Origin: Oscillospiraceae bacterium
Lineage (GTDB): Bacteria > Bacillota > Clostridia > Oscillospirales > CAG-272
Direction of reading: 5' to 3'
NCBI GenBank assembly: GCA_015063535.1
Contig: SVTY01000015.1
Span: forward strand, 1-34,727
DNA: 34,727 nt
Shown: piece after piece, positions 252 through 3,610 of the stretch
How positions within the stretch are numbered: position 1 is the stretch's first letter
Layout: each line of letters starts with the position of its first letter
Made by a program: the position numbers and the translations under genes
The notes under the pieces: generated by a model
Told to the model about the DNA's origin: nothing
The model's database searches: none
The model's input: only the letters and a program-made list of their open reading frames with translations

Positions 252-289
252 AAAACGAACACCGCAGAAACATCTGCGGTGTTCGTTTT
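252..289 (-). terminator. Rho-independent terminator of the DUF262-HNH/methyltransferase operon
   Basis: A perfect 17-bp inverted repeat (252-268 with 273-289) has a 4-nt loop. Read on the minus strand it is followed by a run of seven T (positions 255 down to 249). It starts 17 bp after the stop codon at 306-308. Confidence 0.85.
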
Positions 290-305
290 GCTATGTATGA
301 TGGCA

Positions 306-1469
306 TTATTTGTTGCCTTTTGCACGGTTGTGGGTCTTGCAGAGCATTTGGCAGTTTTGGATATCGGTCGCCCCGCCCTTACTCCAAGCGGTGACATGGT
401 CGGCATCCATTTCGGCAAGCTTCCACATGCGGTTTTTGTTGTTGTCCGCTCCTATCGCACACAGCGGGCAATTCGACACGCCCTTCGCCTTTGCCTGTTC
501 GGTCTGCCGTGTGTAGACCGTCTTTTTGGTCGGCTCGTCAAACATGCGGATCGTCAGGAGCTTCGGCTCCACGCAACCGCCGAGAATGTACTCATACACG
601 CCCTTTTTGTCCTTGACATAAAAATCGGAGTACAGCTCCTTGAGCTTTGCCGATACCTCATCGGGAGCGTAGGCGTTCGTGTGATACTTCTCGTAAAACT
701 CGCCCCACGGCAGTCCCCGCATTTCGCTTTCCACGTCGGTAAAGACACTCGATACCCAGTCGATGACACTGGTAAAATAGGCTTTCAGCTCATGGATATT
801 GTCGTCATAGCGGTGCTTGCTCATGTAGTCGTCGATATTGCCCTTGCTGACCCAAGACAGAGCGGTGCGGAGATAATCCTGTCGGATGACACTGCCCGAC
901 AGATAGGCACTCCATTTTTGGATATTGGCGTTTTGGCTGTTGGAAAATTCCTCTTTTGCCCGTGTGACGAAGGGACCCGAATGGATGGCGTTGGAAAGCT
1001 CCTGCTCGTTGAGGGGGATCCCCGCAATGTTGATGGTCTTAAACCACTCCTTGATCTCGCTTTCGGTTCCTTCGCAGATATAGACGGTGAGCTTGGTCTG
1101 CATGATCTTGTCCTGCAAATCCTTGGCAAGCCCCGAAAAATACCGTGGGATACCGTTTGTGTCATGGATGGCGAATTTGCCCGTTACATACCGTCCGAAG
1201 CTGGTAATACGCTGTTGTCCGTCCAGCACCTCATACGCATCCGCTCCCACCTTGGTGAAATAGAGCAGACCGAGAGGATAGCCCTTGAGGATGGACTCGA
1301 TGACCGCCACATCCCGTTTTCCGTCGGCATAGATATAGTTTCGTTGGTATTCGGGCTGAATGGTGAGCTTGCCCGACAGACCGAACAGCCCCTTGCCCTC
1401 ATATTCGTTATAGACAAACCCTTTGCAGATGTCCGCAACGGTGATGTCGGTTCGTAAAGTGGAGATCAT
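306..1469 (-). CDS. DUF262 domain protein with C-terminal HNH nuclease (GmrSD-like)
   Basis: The protein has 387 aa. The N-terminal ~200 residues are a DUF262 (ParB/Srx-fold) domain, with QPEYQRNY near residue 38 and the hallmark DGQQR at 83-87. In GmrSD-type enzymes this motif belongs to an NTP-dependent regulatory or nuclease subunit. The C-terminus is a treble-clef HNH nuclease: CPLC at 334-337, DADHV at 355-359, N372, C373 and C377, and H380-N381. This is a classical HNH rather than the DUF1524 version usual in GmrD. Its ATG overlaps the methyltransferase stop as ATGA, so translation is probably coupled. The likely role is DNA cleavage in defence, acting as restriction partner of the methyltransferase. 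Domain identity is confident; target, cofactor and whether it senses modified or unmodified DNA are unknown. A standalone type IV-like enzyme is the alternative. Confidence 0.85.
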
Positions 1470-2629
1470 GCTTGTACTCTCTTTCTTATCAAAATTCTTT
1501 GATAAACCTTGTTGCCGTTCACAACGCCAGAAGCATTGAGGTCATATGTTCCTTTTTTGCCAAACAACTCAAAATAACGCTTTTGACATTCTTGGGTTGT
1601 GTAAACTTTTGTTTTTAATCCGTACAAATCAAGATTTTCACACATTCCTAAAATTTCGAATTGTTCGGGGCTGTATTTAGGCAAAAAAGAAATCGGAACA
1701 CCCATGATTCCATCATAGTCACTCGGGATAGCGTCCGTATAAGGGATTTCTATGGCGTCATAATTGTCGTATGTTTGATAACCAAATTCTCTAATCTCTT
1801 TATGTTTGCTGAATTTCAAATTGTCAGCCATAGTCATAAGGCTTAAAGGTTGATGTCGTCTGCCGTGGTCAATGTTGGTAAACCAGTTTGAATTACCAAG
1901 CCTTGTGTAATTTCCTATATATCCAAGTTTGGTCGCTTTTTCTCTGTCCTTTGGTGCAATGTCAGTCCCTTCCGGAACGCTAAATACCATATCTTCACTA
2001 TTACAAGTCGCTCCAAGCCATAACTTATTGTCTTTAATCAAGGGGAAAATTTCTTTATAAGTAATGGCGTTCTGGTTTCCGATTATCAAAAAATTCTTAT
2101 CAGCCTCAACAATCCAAGAGACAAATTCTCTGAATAACGAGAAAGGCGGGTTGGTGATGATAAAATCTGCCTCGTCTCTTAGAGCTTGGATTTCATCACT
2201 TCTAAAATCTCCGTCGCCCTCTAAATACTGCCATTGTAAATCGTGAATGTCAATTGCATTCGATTTGTTGTTGTCTCTTGTGAGGGTAAATATTTTGCCG
2301 TTTGCCTTTGATTTTCTCTCGTCATATCCCGTTTGATTTAGATCGAAAATTGAAAATTGATAGCCGACAGGATACATTTTCTCTTTCTTTTCCTTGGAGA
2401 AGCTCGTGCTGATGAGCTTTTTCAGACCCAAGCTCTCGAAGTTCTGTGCAAAAAACTTTGTGAAATTGCTCCATTCGGGGTCGTCGCATGGAAGCAGAAC
2501 CGTCTTGCCTCGGAATACATCGGGGTTGTACTCCAAATAGGCGTTGACTTCTTTTTGGATAAAATCATATACGGTATAAAATTCGTCGTTTTTTGCATTT
2601 TTCGCTTTGGATAAATTTTCGTTAGCCAT
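1466..2629 (-). CDS. EcoRI-family adenine-specific DNA methyltransferase
   Basis: The protein has 387 aa and should transfer a methyl group from S-adenosylmethionine to adenine N6 in a specific DNA site. Family-typical stretches are visible: [12 protein letters not shown] near residue 17, a [10 protein letters not shown] motif near 47, the catalytic NPPF at 160-163 within [30 protein letters not shown] after it, and a C-terminal [20 protein letters not shown].EcoRI has about 326 aa, so this homologue is somewhat longer. The ATG at 2629 is chosen because GGGAGAG lies just upstream and a promoter lies at 2661-2689. A longer in-frame TTG start at 2689 would sit inside the -35 box. The gene is visibly more AT-rich than its partner and than the core genes, which suggests acquisition by transfer. 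No EcoRI-like endonuclease is present; the next gene carries the nuclease domain. The recognition sequence cannot be read from the sequence. Confidence 0.9.
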
Positions 2630-2660
2630 GGTTCTCTCCCAAAATACAATTCTTTTCTCT

Positions 2661-2689
2661 ATTATACCATATTTTTCCGCCTTTTGCAA
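2661..2689 (-). promoter_or_regulatory. Promoter of the methyltransferase operon
   Basis: On the minus strand the -35 is TTGCAA (2684-2689). A 17-bp spacer follows, then the -10 TATAAT (2661-2666) preceded by an extended TGG. The leader to the ATG at 2629 is about 25 nt. Confidence 0.75.
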
Positions 2690-2731
2690 CCATTCCTGCG
2701 GATTTTGGCGAAGGAGAGGGGATTTTTTGTT

Positions 2732-2989
2732 ATGTTCGCACGCACTTCGTAAGCCTTCCCCAGCGGGGAAGGTGGATTGCCGACAGGCAAGACGGATGAG
2801 GAGATCGCCGTTTGCAGGGCAGATTAAGGTGTGGGTATGCTTGTTTTTAACCGCAAAGAATCTTTTGAATCAAAATAAACGGTTCGTTTCTATATTTGAT
2901 TTGTACATCAGGCGATCTCCTCATCCGTCACTCGCAAGGCTCGTGCCACCTTCCCCGCTGGGGAAGGCTTACGAAGTGTGTGCGAATAT
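2732..2989. repeat. Palindromic repeat family A, complete copy 1 (258 bp)
   Basis: The left end (ATGTTCGCACGCACTTCG) and the right end are inverted repeats over about 44 bp with two mismatches, including a CCTTCCCCAGCGGGGAAGG palindrome. The pairing continues inward through GACGGATGAGGAGATCGCC. The middle holds the AT-rich core with AATAAACGGTTCGTTTC. It has no ORF of its own, so it is probably a MITE or a folded intergenic repeat. Confidence 0.85.
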
Positions 2990-2993
2990 GGAA

Positions 2994-3112
2994 CGGACAG
3001 TCGGGGACGCCTGTCCCTACAACAAAATAAAAGCGAAGCCGTTTTGTTGGTACAACGGGCGAGCTTGCTATGTTTTTACAAACCCGTAGGGACAGGCGTC
3101 CTCGACTGTCCG
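2994..3112. repeat. Palindromic repeat family B, complete copy 1 (119 bp)
   Basis: The ends are ~26-bp inverted repeats: CGGACAGTCGGGGACGCCTG on the left and its near-complement ending CGACTGTCCG on the right. The interior includes GCGAGCTTGCTATGTTT. A second full copy of identical length is at 9712-9830, so this is a discrete repeat unit. Confidence 0.85.
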
Positions 3113-3170
3113 AAAAACAATGAAATTCGAATCGGCTTGGAACACCCCGCAAACCGTAGGGCATTTCCGC

Positions 3171-3270
3171 CATTTACGCCGCAGGCGTAACATCATTTGC
3201 CCACAGGGCAAACATCATTACCGAAGGGTTCATCATTTTGCGAAGCAAAACATCATTTGCCGAAGGCAAC
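3171..3270. repeat. Family D: tandem CATCATT-headed mini-hairpins
   Basis: Five consecutive units of 18-22 bp lie at about 3171-3190, 3191-3212, 3213-3230, 3231-3250 and 3251-3270. The last four begin CATCATT and the first CATTT. Each is followed by a different small stem-loop, such as TTGCGAAGCAA, TTGCCGAAGGCAA or TTACGCCGCAGGCGTAA. The header is constant while the stem sequence varies but keeps its complementarity. Confidence 0.7.
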
Positions 3271-3283
3271 CACGTCCTCCTGT

Positions 3284-3536
3284 ATGTTCGCACGCACTTT
3301 GTAAGCCTTCCCCAGCGGGGAAGGGGGACCACGAAGTGGTGGATGAGGAGATCGCCGTTTGCAGGGTAGATTAAGGTGTGGGTATGCTTGTTTCTAAACG
3401 AAAAGAATCTTTTAAATCAAAATAAACGGTTCGTTTCTATATTTGATTTGTACATCAGGCGATCTCCTCATCCGTCACTCGCAAGGCTCGTGCCACCTTC
3501 CCCGCTGGGGAAGGCTAACAGAGTGTGTGCGAACAT
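3284..3536. repeat. Palindromic repeat family A, complete copy 2 (253 bp)
   Basis: It has the same architecture as 2732-2989: left arm ATGTTCGCACGCACTTTG with CCTTCCCCAGCGGGGAAGG, core with AATAAACGGTTCGTTTC, and right arm ending GTGTGCGAACAT. The left inner arm carries ACCACGAAGTGGT in place of the copy 1 sequence. Confidence 0.85.
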
Positions 3537-3610
3537 GATGGGATTTATTACAAACTTGTAGGGACAGGCGTCCCCGACTGTCCGAAAAACAATGAAATTC
3601 GAATCGGCTC
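3391..3610. repeat. Long direct repeat, right copy
   Basis: This matches 1-220 at roughly 95 percent by eye and in the same orientation. It spans the right half of family A copy 2 plus a solo family B end (3557-3584). The distance between the two copies is 3390 bp, which contains the whole methyltransferase/nuclease operon. Confidence 0.85.

Follow-up and report, generated by a model that had tools for sequence, protein, structure and literature searches.

The 34,727-nucleotide stretch of DNA analysed here (the window; positions 1 to 34,727 of contig SVTY01000015.1, assembly GCA_015063535.1, from an Oscillospiraceae bacterium) carries at positions 306 to 2629 two overlapping genes of the minus strand, one for an EcoRI-type adenine methyltransferase (hereafter M) and, downstream of it, one for a DUF262-HNH nuclease (hereafter R). 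An initial annotation had described them as a restriction-modification-like pair under one promoter and one terminator, and the same arrangement was recovered in the present analysis, with an ATGA common to both genes, a promoter-like site before M and a terminator-like hairpin after R (Table 1). The pattern scan that gave the promoter-like sites found 9 of them in the region against 3.8 expected in shuffles, and the hairpin is absent from the list of that scan.

The assignment of the two proteins to families, proposed at the outset from their motifs, is borne out as well. The match to PF13651 (EcoRI_methylase) covers the entire M (399.8 bits, the cut-off being 26.4), with the NPPF motif invariant in the alignment of M sequences, and R joins a DUF262 domain carrying DGQQR to a classical HNH domain with CxxC cysteines. 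In an alignment (A1) of 46 R proteins chosen from the 80 available, DGQQR (residues 83-87), DH (357-358), N372 and the cysteines C334, C337, C373 and C377 are invariant; thus, as judged from the alignment, the nuclease motifs of R are not decaying. The Pfam scan of R found HNH PF01844, with HNH_5 below its cut-off, and no DUF1524 domain and no helicase or translocase domain at E <= 0.1. DGQQR is described as a nucleoside triphosphatase (NTPase) motif of relatives in the available portions of two reports (PMC4619093, PMC11662687). PADLOC holds full-length models for both proteins, R as REase_II and M as MTase_II; the pair is therefore already known to annotators, as had been surmised, and filed as Type II.

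Table 1. Features of the M-R gene pair in the window
Feature	Position	Strand	Basis
M, EcoRI-type adenine methyltransferase gene, 387 aa	1466..2629	minus	Pfam PF13651 E 1.5e-119; PADLOC MTase_II E 3e-86
R, DUF262-HNH nuclease gene, 387 aa	306..1469	minus	GmrSD_N + HNH (Pfam); PADLOC REase_II aa 10-387, E 4.7e-92
ATGA stop/start overlap of M and R	1466..1469	minus	gene coordinates
NPPF catalytic motif, M aa 160-163	2141..2152	minus	invariant in 42 M (alignment A2)
HV1, first exchangeable module of M, aa ~204-247	1889..2020	minus	window HV1 86% identical to L005, 16% to L006
HV2, second exchangeable module of M, aa ~328-387	1469..1648	minus	window HV2 89% identical to L006, 16% to L005
FEILG stretch, M aa 324-328, edge of HV2	1646..1660	minus	inverted-repeat site in relatives with a spare HV2
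DUF262 / GmrSD_N domain, R aa 36-163	981..1364	minus	Pfam E 4.3e-19
DGQQR motif, R aa 83-87, NTPase motif in relatives	1209..1223	minus	invariant in 46 R; role from available portions of PMC4619093, PMC11662687
HNH nuclease motif, R aa 352-387	309..416	minus	Pfam E 5.1e-8
CxxC (C334, C337), first zinc-ligand-like cysteine pair of R	459..470	minus	invariant in 46 R; presumed zinc role
Promoter-like site TTGCAA-17-TATAAT with TG, 5' of M	2661..2689	minus	10/12 matches
Intrinsic terminator-like hairpin with T run, 3' of R	252..289	minus	-29.1 kcal/mol, z -8.8

The co-occurrence of the two genes was examined in the best 80 of the 497 R relatives of a genome collection and the best 80 of the 83 R loci on viral contigs; these sets are best matches and not a random sample, many of the assemblies are metagenomic and some contigs are near-duplicates. 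An M match accompanies R in 78 of the 80 genome-collection loci, and in both remaining loci R lies at a contig end. The two sets together hold 154 full-length R genes, of which 16 have less than 1.5 kb of upstream sequence, and an intact M lies upstream of 136 of the other 138 (the intactness of M being judged by hand in 16 viral loci). In a survey of 398 genomes of the phylum, M adjoins all eight full-length R genes (eight places in seven genomes) and one more R match is a fragment without M; nine of the ten M matches over the cut-off lie in M-R loci and the tenth is a fragment. The immediate partner of R in the examined loci is a PF13651 methyltransferase, and the commonest junction between the two genes is the ATGA overlap (34 of the 79 loci with an M match, one of these loci being a second pair of the source genome). 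M is less dependent on R than R on M, because 16 of the 64 full-length, non-redundant viral Ms, drawn from the best 79 loci listed, lack R despite 1.5 kb of downstream sequence (44 have R and 4 end too early), against 2 of 138 R genes without an intact M. The pair also occurs on plasmids, in Flavobacterium phage laban6-1 and in Escherichia coli chromosomes, with matches in 7 of 5,426 E. coli genomes, which in 5 cases cover at least 80% of the query. An R.EcoRI query against open reading frames of at least 60 amino acids in 242 loci (window locus L001, L003 included) gave matches solely in L085 and L086.

The linkage bears on the possibility that R acts as a Type IV enzyme, attacking modified-base phage DNA independently, with M as a mere neighbour or an epigenetic regulator. 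R has its DUF262 domain in common with GmrSD and BrxU, which favours such a role, but the near-obligate linkage, the frequent start/stop overlap, the correlation of R with the core of M described below and the lack of a GmrSD-type DUF1524 in the Pfam scan of R make this highly improbable, and the least probable of the explanations considered.

Some individual loci show particular layouts. At the E. coli locus L261, M is intact and R is broken by an IS1-like element. On an Enterococcus dispar plasmid (L088) M and R are separated by a predicted optrA gene, and a fragment of an M C-terminus adjoins R; in L029, L034 and L046 a small open reading frame of about 100 amino acids, seemingly related among the three and possibly an accessory gene, stands between the two genes. 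On a Lactiplantibacillus plantarum plasmid (L087:2180-4279) a gene annotated simply as dcm encodes a fusion of two methyltransferases, an EcoRI-type enzyme for adenine and a C5-cytosine enzyme; neither of the two proteins encoded next gave a Pfam match at E <= 0.01.

Within the pair, R is the more constant partner. In 71 pairs, that of the window and those of 70 of the 80 genome loci, the mean pairwise identity is 75% for R and 60% for M, and R is more conserved than M in 99.4% of the 2,485 comparisons, the reverse of the usual trend in Type II systems; identities were calculated over alignment segments bounded by window numbering, and the comparisons, having members in common, are not independent. 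The variation of M is concentrated in two segments with sharp boundaries, HV1 and HV2 (Table 1), with a milder variable stretch at residues 81-125. Among 119 non-redundant M-R pairs, R is at least 95% identical in 19 comparisons, 15 of which have HV1 or HV2 below 40% identity and 10 of which have both, and at least two HV2 types are found in 8 of the 10 R clusters. In L042 and L043 the R proteins are 100% identical (97.6% in DNA) and the remainder of M 94-100%, with HV1 at 23% and HV2 at 24%; in the Bacteroidales cassettes L042 and L047, with R 98% identical, the difference in M is almost confined to HV2. Judged from such alignments, HV1 and HV2 move separately, since L039 and L041 have identical HV1 and 12% identity in HV2, and L041 and L062 have 24% in HV1 and 94% in HV2. 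Identities of HV1 and of HV2 are almost uncorrelated (r 0.07; largest of 300 permutations 0.068), and modules at least 75% identical are common to cores less than 70% identical in 19 cases for HV2 and 123 for HV1.

The M of the window is itself a mosaic of two sister cassettes, L005 and L006, resembling the first in HV1 and the second in HV2, with R about 90% identical to both. L011 and L012, from one metagenome-assembled genome, have near-identical R genes (97%) and different HV2 segments. Two tandem Ms precede one R in L058, L099, L113 and genome G361, those of L113 being 72-96% alike outside HV1 and HV2, and 16% and 11% alike within HV1 and HV2, respectively. In each of five closed E. coli genomes an intact pair of this clade lies immediately downstream of a ccdAB pair, and the five have three M alleles among them; the allele of L259 is also that of the commensal strain SCU-171. 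On this comparison R does not track the modules within E. coli, because L258 and L259, with R 98.5% identical and residues 1-125 of M 100%, differ in HV1 (20%) and HV2 (30%), and L256 and L259 agree in both modules although their R is less alike (96.7%). Over the 119 pairs, Mantel correlation of R with the core segments of M is 0.66-0.81, against 0.02 for HV1 (largest of 200 permutations 0.08).

These data are difficult to reconcile with an ordinary Type II system in which R has a fixed target of its own, identical to the M site. PADLOC assigns both proteins to Type II, and the rarity of R without M (2 of 138) beside the more frequent M without R (16 of the 64 full-length viral Ms among the matches listed) is what such a system would lead one to expect; however, unrelated HV1 and HV2 stand beside R proteins up to 100% identical. 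Thus, if HV1 and HV2 set the site, R would have no matching target of its own, because its sequence is kept while M changes both modules. The contrast with genuine R.EcoRI partners points the same way. In six plasmid loci in which an M of the same family is paired with R.EcoRI (a seventh, L248, was dropped as no PF13651-type M was detected there), all 15 comparisons keep both modules (HV1 0.61-0.95 and HV2 0.59-0.97, with R.EcoRI at 0.60-0.92), against 24 of the 5,279 comparisons of DUF262-type pairs with R in the range 0.60-0.93 in which both modules are at least 0.59. By this comparison the modules are conserved beside a fixed-target nuclease and exchanged beside DUF262-HNH. The HV2 of an R.EcoRI-partnered M recurs (85%) in L165, in an M with a DUF262-HNH partner, beside an unrelated HV1. 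An ordinary Type II system is therefore already contradicted by the sequences, unless specificity lies outside HV1 and HV2, and is considered very improbable.

A second mode of module change was observed in some relatives. Inverted spare copies of HV2 lie beside M in 7 of the 80 viral-collection R loci (L118, L124, L129, L130, L149, L151 and L169; that of L124 is upstream of R, at a contig end) and in a plasmid locus (L249) 97% identical to L130; none was found in the 80 genome-collection R loci. Inverted repeats of 18-25 bp were detected where HV2 begins, in L249 and in five of these viral loci (not in L124 and L129). Positions 1878-2257 of L130 align in reverse to positions 3416-3792 of L118, with collinear flanks and with ends at the repeats in both, such that the active HV2 of either locus is the spare HV2 of the other. 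HV2 can thus, on the evidence of these alignments, be switched by DNA inversion in some relatives. A tyrosine recombinase gene (Pfam PF00589) follows R in all three loci tested (L118, L130 and L249), and its product presumably performs the inversion. The accessible portion of PMC7394358 describes inversions of hsdS that change Type I specificity, a parallel to the inverted HV2. In L130 a Bro-N domain gene (2469-3317) separates the spare HV2 cassettes from R.

It might be argued that HV1 and HV2 vary under some other pressure, such as phage inhibitors of M, and that M and R share one conserved target throughout the family. No published methylated motif was found for any pair with swapped modules (REBASE being outside the search), which leaves room for this explanation, but it fits poorly with the conservation of the modules in R.EcoRI-partnered Ms, with the inversion of HV2 between relatives, the known route of HsdS specificity change, and with the modules common to diverged cores. 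It is judged quite improbable, if slightly less so than the ordinary Type II system.

The source genome (G000) carries a second M-R pair on another contig (C18:87976-90137; L002, L004, L255), with R 41% and M 50% identical to those of the window. The same dispersed repeats flank both cassettes, the upstream copies being 94% identical over 444 bp and the downstream ones 97% over 148 bp up to the window end, and a leader of 185 bp, 88% identical between the two, runs into M. By this comparison different cassettes occupy like slots in the genome, because diverged M-R pairs share flanking repeats and leader. The dispersed repeat lies at positions 1-196, 2843-2990 and 3390-3600 of the window and matches the genome at 82 places, in many cases only in part. 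The other genes of the window, judged by eye from their translations, read as housekeeping genes, with no defence island.

The linkage, the constancy of R during exchange of HV1 and HV2, the constancy of the modules with R.EcoRI and the inverted spare HV2 in some relatives are established at the level of sequence, and make it very probable that HV1 and HV2 are target recognition modules and, jointly, that R is without independent site specificity. M would methylate adenine at a site set by its interchangeable HV1 and HV2, and R, with a presumed nucleoside triphosphate (NTP) dependence, would dock on M, or on M bound to its unmethylated target, and cut there. A change of HV1 or HV2 would then re-address marking and cutting together, as HsdS does for Type I systems and Mod for Type III. 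Should each module read its own part of the site, freely combined modules would in many cases produce asymmetric sites carrying the mark on a single strand. Taken as a whole, the reading that M alone holds the sequence address, with R a common effector lacking matching specificity and most likely docking on M, has somewhat better than an even chance.

The initial annotation had proposed a hybrid defence module in which a methyl mark protects from, or licenses, the nuclease; this proposal is supported in part. R may cut nonspecifically, its DUF262 domain sensing the methyl mark whatever the surrounding sequence, which would leave M free to change its address; sensing of the mark on self DNA could cause NTP hydrolysis and release, as in DndI, or switch R on against unmarked DNA, as in SspE. 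The structural kinship of the first domain of R with BrxU, SspE and DndI is in keeping with mark reading. However, docking on M is favoured over it because 136 of 138 R genes follow an intact M of one family, though any adenine methyltransferase would serve a generic mark reader, and because the distance of R follows the core of M, if less closely in the main clade, and intact R is found next to damaged M. The last was seen at L031, L105 and L250, with no other PF13651 match in the assembly of L031, and with the search for another M covering one record for L105 and for L250; it is as expected if R needs M to act. Without M, a DndI-like R would do harm, yet R is intact at L031 and L250. Mark reading is thus a possible but rather unlikely explanation, and, if HV1 and HV2 are target recognition modules and R lacks independent site specificity, the link between R and M is probably docking.

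Several observations weigh against docking on a module-addressed M. Intact R with damaged M was seen just three times, and L031 is a metagenome assembly, with possible error; no M-R fusion protein occurs in the compared set; and the structural relatives of R, SspE and DndI, read DNA marks and do not dock on a modifying enzyme. The M-core residues special to DUF262-partnered Ms are few. In the main clade (104 pairs) the correlation of R with the core of M is just 0.27-0.40 (HV1 0.04, HV2 0.17), and over the 119 pairs a weak link of R with HV2 remains (r 0.14, above the largest of 200 permutations, 0.10). Some exchange tracts are not neat, M differing between L029 and L034 (R 99%) from about residue 165 onward, core included. 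Further, the R.EcoRI control consists of six related plasmid loci, and the window locus has no spare HV2 copy.

Annotation as ordinary Type II implies a target of R's own, and the present comparison says otherwise. The pair would on balance constitute a separate class of restriction-modification system, in which an NTP-dependent nuclease without its own specificity is addressed by a methyltransferase with exchanged, and sometimes inverted, modules, in many phyla. If so, one constant nuclease and one methyltransferase with plug-in modules, both small, make up a very small restriction system that can be re-addressed, found in many phyla, on plasmids, in phages and in E. coli. Cutting and marking would be re-programmed together by module exchange or, in some lineages, by site-specific inversion, and a phase-variable class would thereby be known beyond the inversions of hsdS. 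The system connects the mark-sensing nucleases of DUF262 type with the EcoRI methyltransferases, and makes testable how a nuclease without its own target follows a methyltransferase that changes its address. A search of the open PMC literature, with subscription papers, preprints and REBASE outside its scope, gave among the papers listed none recognised as dealing with this pairing or its module exchange.

Comparison with known systems delimits the pair further. Its M belongs to the same family, PF13651, as that of EcoRI (on E. coli plasmids, Ms adjacent to R.EcoRI show 39.6-39.9% identity over residues 2-334), but the partner here is an unrelated DUF262-HNH protein, and the HV modules, conserved with R.EcoRI, are exchanged. 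A methyltransferase gene adjoins a nuclease gene as in Type II (IIP) systems; unlike these, R would have no specificity matching M, to judge from R proteins 95-100% identical with HV1 or HV2 below 40% in 15 of 19 comparisons. In BREX a methyltransferase (PglX) sets the site for a defence system, but that is a multi-gene system and the cassette here has two genes. R has the DUF262 fold with DGQQR of the Type IV enzymes GmrSD and BrxU, BrxU being its best structural match, but ends in a classical HNH (PF01844) and not in DUF1524, has 387 residues and nearly always follows a methyltransferase gene. In the SspABCD-SspE and IscS-DndBCDE-DndI systems a DUF262-HNH-type nuclease is likewise coupled to a DNA-marking system, and DndI, according to the available part of PMC11662687, carries DGQQR at residues 83-87, as R does; their mark is a phosphorothioate made by several proteins, whereas here it is predicted to be N6-methyladenine, the product of a single enzyme whose modules are exchangeable. 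The constant nuclease partner and the placing of specificity in exchangeable or invertible modules, a role of HV1 and HV2 that is probable here, recall Type I systems with inverting hsdS, as described in the accessible portion of PMC7394358. Unlike both Type I and Type III, the present system has two small genes, no helicase or translocase in the Pfam scan of R and no separate S subunit. The Type III Mod-Res systems also combine specificity in exchangeable modules with a constant nuclease partner.
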